64,000 nt of DNA, taken from Nitrospira tepida. GTDB lineage: Bacteria; Nitrospirota; Nitrospiria; Nitrospirales; Nitrospiraceae. A model generated the notes under the pieces. It saw only the letters and a program-made list of their open reading frames with translations, made no database searches and had not been told where the DNA came from. The position numbers and the translations under genes are program-made. Below are positions 32,854 through 40,885 of the stretch, piece by piece (the first letter of the stretch is position 1; the number at the start of each line of letters is the position of its first letter). The stretch spans positions 4,374,461-4,438,460 of the forward strand of contig NZ_OX365700.1 of assembly GCF_947241125.1 (NCBI RefSeq), read 5' to 3'.

Positions 32854-34238
32854 CTAGTCATGCCTGATTAAATGAAAACGGCTGCACCGTCGGGGCCGAG
32901 GTAGAATGCGGTCTCGATGGACCACGGAGCGGAAGCGAAAGCTCCGAAGGTGCTCGCTCCCACGGACGGGAGGGCACAACCCTCAACCAGGAGGTGCAGC
33001 CGTGAGCCAGTATATCGGGATCGATCTCCACAAGGCAAAGTCCTTCGTGACCCGGCTCGATCATCGGGGCCGCGTGCTGGAGCAGCGCGAACTCACCCAC
33101 GCCACCGGCGAGTTGCAACAGTATTTGGAGCGGTTGCCGGCGGAGACGCGCATTGCGGTGGAGGCGACGGGCAATTGGATGTGGTTGTATGAACTGATCG
33201 AGGAGCGGCATCCGGATCTGGTGTTGGCGCACCCGCTGAAGACCAAGGCCATCGCCAGTGCGCGCATCAAGACGGATAAGATCGATGCGACGACGTTGGC
33301 GCAGTTGCTGCGCGCGGACTTGGTCCCGGCGGCCTACATTCCGCCGCGCGACGTGCGGGATACTCGGGAGGTGCTTCGGTATCGAGCCTCCTTGGTGCGG
33401 CTGCGGACGCAGGTGAAGAACAAGATCGCGGCGGTCGTCAGTAAGACCGGGCTCCAGACGCCGACGCGGATGGCCTGCGGCGTGAAGAGCCGCCGCTTTC
33501 TGGCGACCGTTTCGGTGCGGTCGTGCTACCGACTCGGGCTCGACGGGTATCTCCGCACCTTGGAGCATCTGACCACTGAGATTCGCCAGGTCTCCAAGAC
33601 CATTGAGACCCAGGCGGCGGCTGAGCCCCAGGCGCGCTTGCTCCAGACGATGCCGGGCATTGGTGCGTACTCGGCGCTGTTGATCTTGAGTGAGATCGGC
33701 GACATTCAGCGATTCCCGGACAGTCGCCATCTGTGTTCGTATGCCGGGCTGGGGCCCTCGGTCCATGCCTCCGGCGGGAAGACCCGCCTGGGACGTCTGA
33801 CGAAACAGGGCTCGTCGTGGTTGCGGTGGATTCTGGTGGAGCTCTCCGTCCACGCGATCAACGCTGCTCCCCAGTTTCGGAGTCTCTACTATCGGGTGGC
33901 GAAGAAACATGGGCGGAACGTGGGCCGGGTGGCGGTGGCACGGGCCATGTTGAAGACGATCTACGCGATGTTAAAAAAGCAGGAGGCATTTCGCCCGATG
34001 GCGAAGGGCAGCACCGGTCAGCGCCCCGGGGTCATGGTCGGCTGACCATCCGCGGTGAGCCAGATCCGAAGTGCCTGATTGCGCGACCGGTGTCCCATTT
34101 CATCCTGGGCTATGAGCCCGCATAGGTGACTGACTCGTCGTCCACTGAGACGCGCGGGGGACCGAATCGCGGACGGGCATGCTCGCTCTTGACAGTCGTT
34201 TTCATAGGTGACCCTAATTTGCATCTAGTCATGCCTGA
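32854..34238 (+). mobile_element. IS110-family insertion sequence
   Basis: Contains the transposase at 33002-34045. Both outer limits are the 14-bp direct repeat CTAGTCATGCCTGA (32854-32867 and 34225-34238). A third copy of the core, TAGTCATGCCTGACCCCA, is at 34433-34450 without an element. IS110 elements lack terminal inverted repeats, and the 5' non-coding 134 bases (32868-33001) are where a target-guiding (bridge) RNA would be expected in this family. Exact ends are inferred. Confidence 0.7.
33002..34045 (+). CDS. IS110-family DEDD transposase
   Basis: 347 residues. GTG at 33002 follows AGGAGG (32989-32994). N-terminal RuvC-like domain: Asp in YIGIDLHKAK, Glu in IAVEATGNW, two Asp in KTDKIDATTLA. 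C-terminal Tnp_20 domain: MPGIGAYSALLILSEIGDI, LCSYAGLGPS and KQGSSWLRW, whose Ser acts as nucleophile in the family. It appears complete. It could move the element with a guide RNA encoded in its flanks. Confidence 0.93.
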   Translation: MSQYIGIDLHKAKSFVTRLDHRGRVLEQRELTHATGELQQYLERLPAETRIAVEATGNWMWLYELIEERHPDLVLAHPLKTKAIASARIKTDKIDATTLAQLLRADLVPAAYIPPRDVRDTREVLRYRASLVRLRTQVKNKIAAVVSKTGLQTPTRMACGVKSRRFLATVSVRSCYRLGLDGYLRTLEHLTTEIRQVSKTIETQAAAEPQARLLQTMPGIGAYSALLILSEIGDIQRFPDSRHLCSYAGLGPSVHASGGKTRLGRLTKQGSSWLRWILVELSVHAINAAPQFRSLYYRVAKKHGRNVGRVAVARAMLKTIYAMLKKQEAFRPMAKGSTGQRPGVMVG

Positions 34239-34592: not shown

Positions 34593-35588
34593 TTACGCCT
34601 CCGTCTTGTCCGCAAAATTAGCGAGAAACAGGCGCGCAATTTCTTTGCCATTTATCAATAACACGCCGTTGGCCTCAGCTAGCTTCTTCGCCTCCTCCGA
34701 GAAATGATCGGCCAGGCTCATTACGCATCCCTCGGCACCCGGATTTCTAGCCATCATCTTAACCACTTGATCAACCCCTTGTTGATCGCTGGTCCCTTTG
34801 TGCTTTTTTACCTGGGCAAACAGAATTGTCTCTCCTGGCTCAAAAGGTGATAGAGATCTTCTAAGCCGTCTACAGCGGAGATCTAGATCACCTCCTTGTC
34901 CATCAAAACTATTGCGCCCTTCGATGCTGTAGCCATCTGCTTTAAGCAGATATTCACAGATTGCTTCGAATGATATGGCAGTTTTTGAAGGAGCTACCTT
35001 GTTCAGCTCCTCTTGAATAAAAGCAACAACACGCTCTCTCGTGCTACTTAAGAAATCCTCCAGGCTCGATTTGTCATATCTGACGTGTGGATTTTCCTTG
35101 AGTGCCACTAGGATCTTTTGAAAATGGTTCTCGTAGCTTGGAATCTGTAAAATTGGAAGTCTCATCCACGGCAACTTGCCACGCCAAGCTGCTAACTCAT
35201 GGTTATCAATAGAAAGATTGCCATCGAGTCCATGAGATTCCCTTATTTTAATCCGATGATTTTGGCAGGTCGTGTCACCGTCCTCGTATTCATAGCAGTT
35301 CGGAAAATCACCATCCACCACGTGAATACTTACCTTGTTCTCTTCGGGGAGATGAGGAACTACCAAGAGATCTCCGTTCCTGAAAGCTTTTATCCACGTC
35401 AGATTCGTAGGGACTCGAGTGGTGGCCAGCTGATGATAGAGCTTGCATTCTTCAACAAAGTTCTCTCCATCGACTCTTAGGTCTCTCTCTCCTCCACCTC
35501 CCCATCCTTGGGACAACCGCCTTTGCTCCACCACTCGTCTTAAAATTTCACTTCTATGAGAACGATCGAATCTAAAGTTGTATATCAT
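34593..35588 (-). CDS. Mrr-like restriction endonuclease-fold protein
   Basis: 331 residues. The C-terminal part (about 205-325) is Mrr-like: FEAICEYLLKADGYSIEGR, GGDLDLRCRR with the catalytic Asp, then ILFAQVKKHKG giving the Gln-x-Lys pair. The N-terminal 200 residues are not recognised and may read the target or a partner. Codon use is more AT-rich than its neighbours, a sign of transfer. Probably attacks modified or foreign DNA (inference). Confidence 0.78.
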   Translation of the reverse strand: MIYNFRFDRSHRSEILRRVVEQRRLSQGWGGGGERDLRVDGENFVEECKLYHQLATTRVPTNLTWIKAFRNGDLLVVPHLPEENKVSIHVVDGDFPNCYEYEDGDTTCQNHRIKIRESHGLDGNLSIDNHELAAWRGKLPWMRLPILQIPSYENHFQKILVALKENPHVRYDKSSLEDFLSSTRERVVAFIQEELNKVAPSKTAISFEAICEYLLKADGYSIEGRNSFDGQGGDLDLRCRRLRRSLSPFEPGETILFAQVKKHKGTSDQQGVDQVVKMMARNPGAEGCVMSLADHFSEEAKKLAEANGVLLINGKEIARLFLANFADKTEA

Positions 35589-35715: not shown

Positions 35716-35952
35716 TCACGGCTTCACGCCGCAGCGTATTAACACTTGGATCCGCACCTTGTCCAGGGCGTTGAACCGGGCCACGGGGTCGTCAATCCAC
35801 GAGGCCTTCTCGAAGTCGGGCCTGGCCTCCTCGAACTCTTTTCGGCAGATGTACTCCTGTACAACCTGCTTGAGCGACTTGTTCATCGTGACCCGCATGA
35901 GCGCATCTCCTTGCACCACGATTTCGATGATCAAGGCGAAAATCCATTCCAT
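35716..35952 (-). CDS. Small unknown protein downstream of the Tat-primase gene
   Basis: 78 residues: MEWIFALIIEIVVQGDALMR (hydrophobic N-terminus), then a charged helical region (EYICRKEFEEARPDFEKASW). GAGGAGGTGACCC directly upstream is an excellent ribosome site. It follows the primase-like gene on the same strand after 28 bases, so they probably form one operon. Not recognised. Confidence 0.65.
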   Translation of the reverse strand: MEWIFALIIEIVVQGDALMRVTMNKSLKQVVQEYICRKEFEEARPDFEKASWIDDPVARFNALDKVRIQVLIRCGVKP

Positions 35953-35980: not shown

Positions 35981-37276
35981 TTAGGCCATGAGAAGCCGGG
36001 TGATGGGCTGCGCGCTGGCTACGAGCTTGGCGATACGGGAGGAGCCTTCCGATTGCAGCAGTCGTCCGAGGCTCGTCCCGCTCGGCAGCGTAAGGAAACG
36101 GACTCGATCCCCGTAAGGCGCAACGACCTTCAGCAGATCGTCCAGCAGGAGCGAATCCATGGGACCTACCGATACGTGGATCAGATGATCCGCCATCGCA
36201 CAGGCCGTGCGAAGCACAGCCCGCTTGTCCCAGCTTCTGGCTCCGACCGGGCAGACGACATGAGATAGGCCCTGCTGCCGGAGGAGCAGGACATCCAATG
36301 GATGCTGTGTGAGAAAAAGCTGGTCGTGACGCCGGAAGTCTTGCGGCCAACCGGGCGAGGGATAGACCAGTCGGTCGTACCGGTGCGAGTACAGCGGTCC
36401 TTCCCTTGCCCCCCAAAGCACCTCTTGACACGGCCTCCAATCAACAGGCTCATCCAGCAATGACCAGACACGCCCCCGGCCGTCATGGACCGGCACCAGC
36501 AGCACGTCGTTCGCATGACGATCGATGAGACGCTGCTGACCGATCCGATGCCCGATCAGCCCCGCGACTCTCATTTCGTCTTCCGAGTAGCCCTGTTCCT
36601 GAAGATGATCTCGCAACAGGGTGTCCGGCGCGGAAGGACAATAGCCCAACCGGAGTTGCCGAATGGTCGCCTCGGTGAGGCCTTGCCGCTTCGCCCATTC
36701 CCGGCCTCGCTCCCCTTCGGGTCGTTCCAGCAGTATGGAATGATAAAAGTTCGCGGCGTCTTCCATGACGCGCCAGAATCGCGCATATTCGCGTCGAACG
36801 CCTTGAAGCATACCCGCGTCGAGCATCCGCGCGAGTTTCTGCAGGGCCTCGGCCCGTGTCAGAGATTCGGCCTGCGCGATGAACTCCACCGGCGACCCGC
36901 TCGCACGGCAGTCGGTGCAGGCATACAACTCCCGACTAACCTCGAAGCAGCCGGAGTGGCAGAAGGGACATGGTCCGATCCAGGAACTCGCTATCGGCGA
37001 CCATCGTTTCAGGCGTCCGGACGGCGGCAGATAAGACCGCACGACCTCCCGGCAATCGGCCTCGTCACGGACATCTTCCCATCGCTCAATCGCCAGCAAG
37101 TCGTCCAACGCCGATGGATCGTTTCGCGAGCACGGCTCCTCATCGGCCGGTCCACAACCCGATCTCTCGATCCGCGAATGGCTTCTCATGGCGGCCGCAC
37201 CGATCGGCCCGGCCGGCAGGAGCGTGCCCAGGCCCACGAGCCCCGCCTTCTTGATAAACGATCGCCGATTCAGCAT
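35981..37276 (-). CDS. Primase-domain protein with twin-arginine signal peptide
   Basis: 431 residues from ATG 37276 (AAGGAGG upstream). It opens MLNRRSFIKKAGLVGLGTLL, a textbook Tat signal ending near GPIGAAA. Residues about 103-135 are a CHC2-type zinc finger (CPFCHSGCFEV, ACTDCRASGSPVEFI). Residues about 165-285 resemble the DnaG N-terminal core (FYHSILLERPEGERGREWAK, LGYCPSAPDTLLRDHL). The Toprim-like C-terminal part reads TQHPLDVLLLRQQGLSHVVC, without the usual EGYxD acidic residues, and HVSVGPMDS replaces the DGD motif. It is therefore probably catalytically dead and exported, which is paradoxical for a primase. Confidence 0.78.
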   Translation of the reverse strand: MLNRRSFIKKAGLVGLGTLLPAGPIGAAAMRSHSRIERSGCGPADEEPCSRNDPSALDDLLAIERWEDVRDEADCREVVRSYLPPSGRLKRWSPIASSWIGPCPFCHSGCFEVSRELYACTDCRASGSPVEFIAQAESLTRAEALQKLARMLDAGMLQGVRREYARFWRVMEDAANFYHSILLERPEGERGREWAKRQGLTEATIRQLRLGYCPSAPDTLLRDHLQEQGYSEDEMRVAGLIGHRIGQQRLIDRHANDVLLVPVHDGRGRVWSLLDEPVDWRPCQEVLWGAREGPLYSHRYDRLVYPSPGWPQDFRRHDQLFLTQHPLDVLLLRQQGLSHVVCPVGARSWDKRAVLRTACAMADHLIHVSVGPMDSLLLDDLLKVVAPYGDRVRFLTLPSGTSLGRLLQSEGSSRIAKLVASAQPITRLLMA

Positions 37277-37455
37277 GGGGCGCCTCCTTGGTCTCTGGAA
37301 TTCCGCTTTATGCACGTGCGCGCGACCCAATTCCCCTCTCGATTGGTCACGGTGAGCCTCCTCACCTTCTGGAAGGCGAGCTTACACCCGCCCTGTGACG
37401 GAACAGGTCACAGGGCTTCGGTCAGCGGAACAGGCAATGGGCTGGAGACGGTCGG

Positions 37456-38478: not shown

Positions 38479-38682
38479 TCAGCGATTGGTCTTCGCCTCT
38501 GGATTCTCCCACATTTCTTCTAACTGCTTGAATCTTTCCACCTCTTCGAACATAGCGATCGACTCCATAAGACTTTCAGGGGTCATATAAGCTAATTCAG
38601 GATGATTCGCTATTAACTCGTCTAGAATTTCATGGACGTCAAATGACTTGCCTCGCCAGTTCGTATAGATATAATCGCCCAT
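38479..38682 (-). CDS. Small unknown protein (67 aa)
   Basis: MGDYIYTNWRGKSFDVHEIL begins a charged helical product. GAAAGGAGGATACTCG upstream is a strong ribosome site. It is 24 bases before the WYL gene, and likely shares its transcript. Resembles antitoxin-sized proteins but no family is recognised. Confidence 0.6.
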   Translation of the reverse strand: MGDYIYTNWRGKSFDVHEILDELIANHPELAYMTPESLMESIAMFEEVERFKQLEEMWENPEAKTNR

Positions 38683-39129
38683 CGAGTATCCTCCTTTCAG
38701 CGGCGCTCGTTGGCCGGATTCTCCAAGCTCTGGTCTCCTTCCCCTGGTCCCCTTTCCGAATACCCGGGTTGTCGCTAACTCCGCTGATTGTAGCAGCGGA
38801 CTGTGACGGATGAGGTCCTAGCGGTGCAATCCCCCGGAACTCCCGGCAGATGGACCGTCCGACCAGGCAGAGGGGATGGGAACATGCACCCGAAGAGGGC
38901 CAGGACTTGATTTTAGCAACTGGGAATTGAACGCCTTTTCTCACGAGACCGTGGGGTTAGGGCGCGGCGAGTGGGAGACGGCGACGCCTTGCTCGCTTAT
39001 CCTCGGCTGTGGCGGAGTGGATTTCGCCGACACGGACAACGTCGTGGCCGAGGTCGCGGAGAAATTCCAAGAAAGATTCGGAGGGCGAGTCTGGCAATCA
39101 CACACACCCAGGCCACCAGCTCTGCGGGA
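38683..39129. other. Gene-poor stretch of about 450 bases
   Basis: No complete gene. A plus-strand frame reading DFADTDNVVAEVAEKFQERF (about 39026-39085) has decent codon use but no start or end that makes sense, so it may be a gene fragment. Confidence 0.4.
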
Positions 39130-39501
39130 TCACTCGTTTTCGGTGGGACCGAGATGAATACGGATACGGCCGGGCTCCACGATCCACAGTCGGCCGACAG
39201 GCGATTCCTTAGAGACCGCATGAACGATCTGCTCAATGAGTCCCTGCATCCCTGCCAGGGTGGGATGTGGATGACGCAGTATGATGAAACCCGGGGAATG
39301 CTCCGGAGGAAAATCCAAGAGTTGGGCGAAGTCCAGATCTACGGTGATCAGGCACCGCTCTTCTCGCTTGCAGGCTGCGGCGATCGTGTCATCCTCAGCA
39401 CCTTGCAGATCTTCATCGAAGACCGTGCTCACGGCGTGCCCGGCCCTGATGAGCGGCGCCTGCCAGCGGGGATCACAATTCTCGTCGAGCTTGAATTGCA
39501 C
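39130..39501 (-). CDS. DUF5615 PIN-like toxin
   Basis: 123 residues: MQFKLDENCDPRWQAPLIRAG with the Asp-Glu pair, then CLITVDLDFAQLLDFPPE with a further acidic pair; the PIN-like DUF5615 fold. The upstream partner is the DUF433 gene at 39504, two bases away. An intact counterpart of the decayed pair at 31218-31647. Probably a ribonuclease toxin. Confidence 0.85.
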   Translation of the reverse strand: MQFKLDENCDPRWQAPLIRAGHAVSTVFDEDLQGAEDDTIAAACKREERCLITVDLDFAQLLDFPPEHSPGFIILRHPHPTLAGMQGLIEQIVHAVSKESPVGRLWIVEPGRIRIHLGPTENE

Positions 39502-39503
39502 TG

Positions 39504-39740
39504 TCAGGTCGTGACTTCGACCGGGAGCACCCGTTCGCGGGCCATTTCGGCGGCATACGCGAGACAGGCCCGGACATCTTCTCGCGTGAGACTCGGATAA
39601 GCAGCCAGCACCTCTTCGACACTATTCCCATTGGCAAGGTACTGGACGATGAGCCAGACCATGATTCGAGTCCCCTTCACGCAAGGCTGACCATGACAGA
39701 TGCGGGGATTGATGCTAATGCGGTCAAGGAGCGGCTTCAT
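39504..39740 (-). CDS. DUF433 antitoxin
   Basis: 78 residues: MKPLLDRISINPRICHGQPC, then KGTRIMVWLIVQYLANGNS and VEEVLAAYPSLTREDVRACL, the winged-helix-like DUF433 pattern. Upstream in-frame starts exist at 39761 (ATG) and 39779 (TTG); no start has a clear ribosome site. Pairs with the DUF5615 gene. Confidence 0.82.
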   Translation of the reverse strand: MKPLLDRISINPRICHGQPCVKGTRIMVWLIVQYLANGNSVEEVLAAYPSLTREDVRACLAYAAEMARERVLPVEVTT

Positions 39741-39915
39741 TGTGGGTGCATGATAGGCCATGTGCCAGGGCTGGTTCAATGGCCGGCAGGGAAGGGTCTT
39801 AGCTCTTGGAGACTCGCACAGCGATCACGCAGGCGCCCACATCGCACGTCGCTGCAGGTAACTCAGCATGCGCTCGGCGAGCTACGTTTCCCGAGTAATG
39901 CTTCACGAGTTGTCA

Positions 39916-39932
39916 TGAACGCGAAGCGTTCA
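39916..39932. repeat. Short hairpin
   Basis: TGAACGC GAA GCGTTCA, a perfect 7-bp stem with 3-base loop. Purpose unknown. Confidence 0.45.
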
Positions 39933-39951
39933 CCCATGTAGCATGCAAAGC

Positions 39952-39997
39952 CCCCCTCACCTTCTCCTCTCCCCTTCTTGGGGGAGAGGGTGGGGGA
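39952..39997. repeat. Inverted repeat of the CCTCTCCCC type
   Basis: CCTCTCCCC paired with GGGGAGAGG around a TTCTTG loop, extended by CCCCTCAC and GTGGGG outside. This palindromic style is a common dispersed intergenic repeat in GC-rich bacteria. Confidence 0.7.
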
Positions 39998-40008
39998 ACA
40001 GCGACATC

Positions 40009-40068
40009 TCACGCTTTCGGCTGGAAGTCGCGGGCAGCGCAAGCCAGCTGCGCTTCCGCAGGGTCTGG
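40009..40068 (-). pseudogene. 3'-end remnant of a cysC copy
   Basis: TCACGCTTTCGGCTGGAAGT and onward match the last 60 bases of the intact adenylyl-sulfate kinase gene (41199-41257) with one base missing. On the minus strand it would encode LRKRSWLA and, one frame off, RDFQPKA then stop. vapBC lies between the two copies. Confidence 0.6.
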
Positions 40069-40211
40069 TACACCTGGAGTGATGAGGAGGGCCGAAGGGC
40101 TTTAATGACTCTCCCGCTGGCTCGCCACGGCCAGAATGTTTAGGGTAAGCCGAGGGAATGCTACGGGACGCGTTCGGCCGAGCAGGCGGTATTCGAACAG
40201 TGCGAACTGCT

Positions 40212-40652
40212 CTATCCCACGCGTCCGAGGGTAAGCAGTTTGACCGGTAGGCCCAGGCTCCGCGCTTCTATCGCAAGCCGCCGGTCGGCGGTCAGCACCG
40301 ACGCCGCCGCGGACTCGGCCACGGAGAGATGGAGTGCATCAAGCGTGCGGAGCGTCCCTTGGAATTTCCCCAACCAGGACCTGGCCAAACGATAGTCACG
40401 CGCCTTCAGGGACAGCATTTCATAGTACCCCTCCTCGACGTGCGCTTCGAATTGGGCCATCACTCTCACGCCACTTTCGCGAGACAACGTCTTCTCCCGA
40501 ATCTTTCGGGAAACTGCCGAGGTGAATTCGACAAGGGTCAGTTCGCTGATCGCCGGTGCGGTCACACTCCTTAAGGTCCGCTCCGCGACCAGGCTCAACG
40601 GTTCGGGGCAGTAATAGGCGGCGAGAACGCTGGTATCCACATAGACGGTCAC
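40212..40652 (-). CDS. vapC: VapC-type PIN-domain toxin
   Basis: 146 residues. PIN acidic residues: Asp in MTVYVDTSVLAAYY, Glu in ISELTLVEFTSAV, Asp in LRTLDALHLSVAE and VLTADRRLAIEA. VapC toxins are magnesium-dependent RNases, many cutting tRNA. Its start overlaps the antitoxin stop (ATGA, 40649-40652). Confidence 0.9.
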   Translation of the reverse strand: MTVYVDTSVLAAYYCPEPLSLVAERTLRSVTAPAISELTLVEFTSAVSRKIREKTLSRESGVRVMAQFEAHVEEGYYEMLSLKARDYRLARSWLGKFQGTLRTLDALHLSVAESAAASVLTADRRLAIEARSLGLPVKLLTLGRVG

Positions 40653-40885
40653 GCGCGCTCGGTCACGCGCGAGTCAATCACGATCCGACTCAACGTACGC
40701 CCTTTTCGTTTGATCGAACGGCGCAAGGCGACGAGCGACGGGAGTCGACGCCGGCGGCGAGATGGAGGCACCAGCCTGGCGACAACTTCACCGCGCCGCG
40801 CGATTGTGATCGTTTCACCGGCCTCGGCACGATCGAGGAGACTTTTTAAGAGGCGGCGTGTTTCTTTAACATTGATTGATCCCAT
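40649..40885 (-). CDS. vapB: VapB/Phd-type antitoxin
   Basis: 78 residues from ATG 40885: MGSINVKETRRLLKSLLDRA, then ETITIARRGEVVARLVPPSR, a Phd/YefM-like DNA-binding fold, with an Arg/Lys-rich C-terminal half. AGGTGG lies 4 bases upstream. An inverted repeat at 40900-40918 lies just before it, as expected for autoregulation. Confidence 0.87.
   Translation of the reverse strand: MGSINVKETRRLLKSLLDRAEAGETITIARRGEVVARLVPPSRRRRRLPSLVALRRSIKRKGRTLSRIVIDSRVTERA

Follow-up and report, generated by a model that had tools for sequence, protein, structure and literature searches.

A predicted twin-arginine signal on a primase-like protein encoded in a putatively WYL-regulated accessory cassette of Nitrospira

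What could a primase relative that has lost its catalytic residues do with an export signal at its N-terminus? This question is raised by gene B, located in a 64,000-nucleotide stretch of the genome of Nitrospira tepida, the whole of which is referred to here as the window. An earlier note, made from the letters of the window, had described its product as an exported, inactive relative of DNA primase with a possible new role outside the cytoplasm. The features discussed below are collected in Table 1.

Table 1. Positions of gene B, its sequence elements, its neighbours and related loci (plain numbers are positions in the window; L numbers are other loci).
Feature	Position	Strand	Basis or remark
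Gene B, Tat-signal pseudo-primase (putative), 431 aa	35981..37276	-	domain matches and 21 intact homologues
Shine-Dalgarno AAGGAGG of gene B	37283..37289	-	
Predicted twin-arginine signal MLNRRSFIKKAGLVGLGTLLPA, residues 1-22	37211..37276	-	motif 21/21; top pairwise identity 0.52
Linker, residues 23-58, AxA-like sites	37103..37210	-	identity 0.13; near-neutral evolution, dN/dS ~1 in most close pairs
Cys4 zinc ribbon, residues 103-123 (C103, C106, C120, C123)	36908..36970	-	PF01807; invariant in A1 and A4
DnaG-type polymerase core, degenerate Toprim, residues 156-431	35984..36811	-	PF08275; model and Foldseek
Gene C, small protein of 78 aa; N-terminus hydrophobic, cysteines 36 and 74 (C36, C74) invariant	35716..35952	-	own ribosome site
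HTH-WYL-WCX regulator, 332 aa	37456..38454	-	PF13280, PF25583; nearest solved relative DriD
Gene D, 67-aa small protein (YIYTNWRGK)	38479..38682	-	
Putative DriD-like operator and -10 box, GTGAC-N7-GTCAC-N10-TAAGCT	37379..37411	-	exact match
Site before gene D with weaker resemblance to the operator, plus TACAAT	38787..38819	-	2 mismatches
Mrr-type restriction endonuclease adjoining cassette	34593-35588	-	weak PADLOC PDC-S02 match
Genes on either side of cassette: IS110-family transposase, PIN/DUF5615 toxin-antitoxin-like genes	33002-34045, 39130-40885		
Insertion hotspot, uvrA/NAT to 112-aa gene	L108-L117, L033-L037		varying defence, toxin-antitoxin, tyrosinase cargo
WYL-AAA ATPase cassettes	L081:5895-7147, L098:11468-12439, L105:7557-8858		AAA N-terminal domain of unknown type
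NP-repeat small proteins	L133, L134, L142, L143, L146, L155 (about 1570-2000); own genome L125:8325-8690		
Hma-type defence operon, own genome	L124:5921-16821 (G000)		PADLOC HmaA, HmaC; same operator and -10 spacing

The start of gene B is secure: the ATG at 37276 is preceded at 6 nt by AAGGAGG, and the twin-arginine motif also opens each of the 21 intact homologues; an alternative TTG start, 54 nt further upstream, is not needed. The protein matched the primase zinc ribbon PF01807 (E 8.4e-8, residues 67-153) and PF08275 DNAG_N (E 4.3e-8, residues 178-270), both above the Pfam cut-offs. TIGR01391 dnaG matched with E 4.9e-24, at 84.9 bits, which does not reach the equivalog cut-off of 283.6 bits, and the same was found for 10 of 10 homologues. 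The AlphaFold2 model (12 rows; pLDDT 74.5, pTM 0.69) had the DnaG fold, with residues 15-53 at pLDDT <50, and its top Foldseek matches, 2au3 (E 1.2e-17) and 3b39, are both DnaG. These results bear out the DnaG-like core proposed in the earlier note. The zinc finger proposed there was recovered as a primase zinc ribbon, but with ligands of the Cys4 type (CPFC...CxxC) and not CHC2.

Residues of 12 DnaG proteins were mapped onto 21 gene B family members, with numbering according to the DnaG of the same genome. Toprim D291 and D324 are kept in none of the 21 members, D322 in two, D289 in eight and E245 in 15, and position D249 is D or E in all of them. The basic residues K209 and K221 of DnaG have disappeared throughout the family, and R181 is found in two members. 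The gene B protein keeps one Toprim acid, D/E328, which corrects the statement in the earlier note that the Toprim motifs have lost their acidic residues; most of the catalytic residues of the core are lacking. The mature family proteins are acidic, with pI 4.9-6.7 and net charges of -2 to -17, as compared with pI 7.0-9.2 for DnaG cores. Judged by its sequence, the gene B protein appears to be a pseudo-primase.

A family alignment of 11 rows separates gene B from DnaG. In 395 genomes of the phylum, full-length B proteins scored >420 bits, with one more full-length member, in G448, at 361 bits, and the best DnaG-like match scored 137. The 21 intact homologues, a set that leaves out broken copies and duplicate contigs (L041 = L033, L046 = L078), all come from Nitrospira and close relatives. 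Within the order, 18 of 235 genomes matched gene B, 15 with a full-length copy (G017, G041 and G438 hold partial copies only), in 5 of 37 genera. A scan of genome contigs with the alignment gave seven loci, all titled Nitrospira or Nitrospiraceae, and a scan of genome contigs with the single gene B sequence gave no match; among the named records with the gene are that of N. moscoviensis NSP M-1 and those of several MAGs of Nitrospira. No relative was found in the viral contigs scanned, and among the 12 phage and 12 plasmid matches listed, all start at residue 40 or later and the annotated ones are called DNA primase. Several genomes carry two tandem copies, one beside the WYL gene and one usually beside gene D.

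The N-terminus of the protein, MLNRRSFIKKAGLVGLGTLLPAGPIGAAA, resembles a Tat signal. The pattern M-x-[STN]-R-R-x-[FL]-[FIL]-[KQ] stands at residue 1 in all 21 intact homologues, each with consecutive RR and K/Q at +4, and the composition-based chance of this pattern is about 1.7e-6 per N-terminus. None of these homologues begins downstream of the motif, the ATG of which mostly has a GGAGG-like ribosome site on its 5′ side. The h-region is moderately hydrophobic (mean KD 1.0-1.9 over residues 10-21), with no strong TM-like stretch, and 18 of the 21 have an AxA-like site. Mean pairwise identity was highest in the signal (0.52, residues 1-22), as compared with 0.13 in the linker, 0.42 in the zinc domain and 0.39 and 0.34 in the core. 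In the 14 closest gene B pairs, dN/dS was 0.09-0.58 for the signal (12 measurable pairs), mostly 0.8-1 for the linker (range 0.33-1.11) and 0.09-0.34 for the zinc domain. The source genome holds two TatC genes, indicating that the Tat machinery is present. The scores of both Tat models were below their cut-offs (PF10518, 12.5 against 22.7 bits; TIGR01409, 13.2 against 16.7 bits), and PF10518 matched at E<=1 in just 3 of 11 family members. The signal predicted in the earlier note, and the shared N-terminus expected of its homologues, are thus supported by motif, h-region, AxA-like site and conservation, but not by the model scores. The conserved signal and the lost catalytic residues support its description of an exported, inactive primase relative, export of B being a prediction. 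Each family protein contains 8-14 cysteines, four of which are zinc ligands and the remainder mostly unconserved; this content would suit a reducing cytoplasm better than the periplasm, which counts against export.

Gene B belongs to a cassette with the minus-strand order D, WYL regulator, B, C, with gaps of 24, 179 and 28 nt and a GGAGG-type ribosome site before each of B, C and D. In all 13 genomes where the first B copy is intact, its immediate upstream neighbour is the WYL gene, the gap being 1.2 kb in L079. Gene C is present in 8 of 147 relatives, each with a B gene or B remnant, suggesting that B and C may be partners; a C gene adjoining B was not seen in three genomes (L038, L045 and L079). 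Gene D is present in 5 of the 147, and four of these also have B. In the remaining one, G032, D and a WYL gene are followed about 3 kb further by an AAA ATPase in place of B, and in G356 such an ATPase lies between the WYL gene and C. The AAA gene, whose product has weak IetA similarity in PADLOC, was downstream of a WYL gene in all five loci with enough sequence. With the WYL gene upstream and the operator described below present at one mismatch in two of four cases, the AAA ATPase seems to serve in place of B as the effector of one kind of cassette. Neither C nor D matched a Pfam family, PADLOC gave no system for B, C or D, and B gave only weak primase-like matches to PADLOC families, so that no known anti-phage system was matched. 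The model of C, two helices with pTM 0.49, was little informative.

In many Nitrospira genomes the cassette is found between uvrA/NAT and a 112-aa gene, and that of the window lies elsewhere. Syntenic sites in genomes lacking B had no trace of B, C or D in 10 of 10 cases. Without B, the hotspot is empty in G047 and holds a TIR-nSTAND protein gene in G076, and others contain toxin-antitoxin-like genes, a tyrosinase or a transposase. In G074, the PADLOC candidate PDC-M15B lies between the two B copies.

The regulator matched WYL and WCX above cut-off; HTH_11 scored 20.2 bits, below the cut-off of 25, and was above it in two other copies of the regulator. The R-x-F-x(3)-R stretch typical of the WYL domain was found in 15 of 17 WYL proteins under the strict pattern. 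The closest solved match of the regulator is DriD (8tp8/9pfq, E 3e-18, residues 27-329). PMC11804915 and PMC12340889 describe the WYL proteins PafBC and DriD as ssDNA-activated, and PMC12340889 gives the DriD sites as ATACGAC-N7-GTCGTAT, overlapping the -35 element and serving didA, bapE, recJ and dnaG. Upstream of B, we found GTGAC-N7-GTCAC-N10-TANNNT exactly in 18 of the 21 intact genes and with one mismatch in the other three, as compared with 0 matches at <=1 mismatch in 4,400 plain base shuffles of the B upstreams (22 x 200). It is absent upstream of the truncated L039 copy (6 mismatches). Eight D genes had the operator exactly (four), with two mismatches (three) or with four (one), and four AAA genes had it with one mismatch (two) or with three and five. 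The 4.73-Mb genome of the window contains three exact operators and six at <=1 mismatch, against three for the reversed control. In related genomes there were 37 exact operators in 12 of 15, against 0 for the reversed control, and 12 of the 37 are promoters of B, second-copy B or D. The PafBC promoter motif is TGTCRGTG-N8-TANNNT; DriD is the better fit. Gene B is presumably regulated by the adjoining WYL protein, for which ssDNA may be the inducer.

Among the 37 sites, 25 are non-B operators, of which 22 were inspected. Nine lie <=1 kb upstream of HsdM genes (two share one gene), one lies upstream of a Cas3-HD protein gene and three are beside a divergent caspase-like gene. Pfam confirmed seven of seven HsdM proteins scanned, the Cas3_HD and one caspase, and gave no match for the one VWA-like gene scanned. 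An exact operator also heads the Hma operon of the genome to which the window belongs (HmaA 8.5e-172, HmaC 2.2e-87 in PADLOC). The operator class thus marks defence operons in Nitrospira. The spacer is of the CCCGGAT type at defence operons and mostly of the TTCTCT type at B, and owing to this difference the defence-operon sites may be read by a paralogous WYL protein; the case for B's own WYL protein acting at the Hma and HsdM sites is weakened by it. The first gene after at least 10 of the 22 inspected operators encodes a small protein that has NP repeats and begins like a signal sequence. In several Nitrospira genomes, the genes of such proteins (FNPINQYxPxNPLNP) stand immediately before those of type I restriction HsdM; they would be exported leader proteins of restriction operons.

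The gene B protein is best read as a putatively neofunctionalised, catalytically dead DnaG paralogue with a predicted twin-arginine signal, and as the effector of an accessory cassette consisting of a WYL regulator, B, C and often D and a second B copy. That it is a Tat-signal pseudo-primase under selection is highly likely from these sequence comparisons, and its place in an ssDNA- and WYL-controlled stress or defence cassette is reasonably likely. For the combined mechanism, a WYL-switched, Tat-carried, non-catalytic envelope effector, we estimate a probability of about 0.5. Here, ssDNA produced when a phage or plasmid enters, or when DNA is damaged, would activate the DriD-like WYL protein, which would bind GTGAC-N7-GTCAC over the -35 region and turn on B, C and D. 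B would fold and take up zinc in the cytoplasm, and Tat would then move it across the inner membrane to the outer side, where it would be either released or still anchored. There, B and C might have a non-catalytic binding or scaffold role within a stress or anti-phage response, so that B may contribute to defence. A more tentative proposal is that these proteins form a new effector class against phage or genotoxic stress, in which a dead Tat-exported primase is under an ssDNA-sensing WYL switch and interchangeable with an AAA ATPase. If this is true, the envelope has gained a new use of a core replication fold, and a replication enzyme has been recruited outside the cytoplasm, for example to block phage genome entry or, alternatively, to remodel the envelope after foreign DNA is sensed.

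A different explanation is that the N-terminus, with its RR and hydrophobic stretch, serves as a membrane anchor or as an amphipathic helix for docking. The primase-like body would then stay at the membrane on the cytoplasmic side, where under ssDNA stress it might, for example, hold the machinery of replication or division. This would account for the many, largely unconserved cysteines, for a signal better conserved than an ordinary cleaved signal requires and for the sub-threshold Tat scores; PMC12340889 also describes control of a division inhibitor by DriD, with DidA in Caulobacter as a parallel. However, the invariable consecutive RR with K/Q at +4, the moderate hydrophobicity of residues 10-21, the AxA-like sites and the unconserved linker after the N-terminus speak against an anchor, which we consider unlikely. 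Also rather unlikely is a WYL-controlled envelope effector unrelated to phage, which might, for example, arrest division or act in competition between bacteria, C being its partner or an immunity protein. Its attraction lies in C, small with a hydrophobic end and found only with B, and in the tandem copies and patchy distribution, but B has no toxin fold and its operator class is common to restriction and CRISPR genes.

The earlier note had suggested DNA or nucleotide binding during uptake. B does retain the zinc ribbon and the core fold of an enzyme that binds DNA; nevertheless, the acidic proteins, the missing basic residues, the patchy distribution with a hotspot and a cassette that lacks competence genes but has a WYL regulator and an operator of the DriD-like kind speak against this suggestion, which we regard as improbable. 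If B were a primase gene duplicate in decay, its N-terminus having arisen by chance, this would explain the broken copies (L034 third copy, L039, L040, L042 third copy, L080 and L081), but whole-gene dN/dS of 0.20-0.43 in the 14 closest pairs, zinc cysteines invariant across the gene B alignments, and the kept operator and ribosome sites refute it for the intact copies and leave it scarcely credible as a general account.

In nitrite-oxidising Nitrospira, genetics is difficult, and the DriD-like operator, if our preferred reading of an envelope effector is true, offers a computable map of a WYL defence regulon. A search of 5.39 million open-access papers, outside which most subscription papers lie, turned up neither a primase described as exported or as having a Tat signal nor any account of WYL defence control in Nitrospira. 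Among known systems, the RTasDnaG-like family (DRT, PADLOC PDLC03800) shows weak primase similarity to B (E 3.4e-9), but the match spans the primase part only, and no reverse transcriptase gene was noticed in passing. BrxR/CapW defence loci resemble the B cassette in that an accessory cassette is headed by a WYL regulator and shares its hotspot with defence genes, although B belongs to no known defence family; moreover, the operator of B lies upstream of the -10 box, as for an activator, whereas PMC9122601 places that of BrxR downstream of it, repressing. DnaG primase shares with B the order of zinc ribbon and RNA-polymerase core and the fold (E 1.2e-17), but B differs in its Tat signal, Cys4 ligands and acidity, in having no helicase-binding C-terminal domain, in the loss of catalytic and basic residues, and in lying far under the TIGR01391 equivalog cut-off. 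DriD, the WYL activator of Caulobacter, differs in the outer half-site bases (ATACGAC/GTCGTAT, as compared with GTGAC/GTCAC here), but is the nearest solved relative of the cassette regulator and shares the GAC-N7-GTC palindrome over the -35 region.
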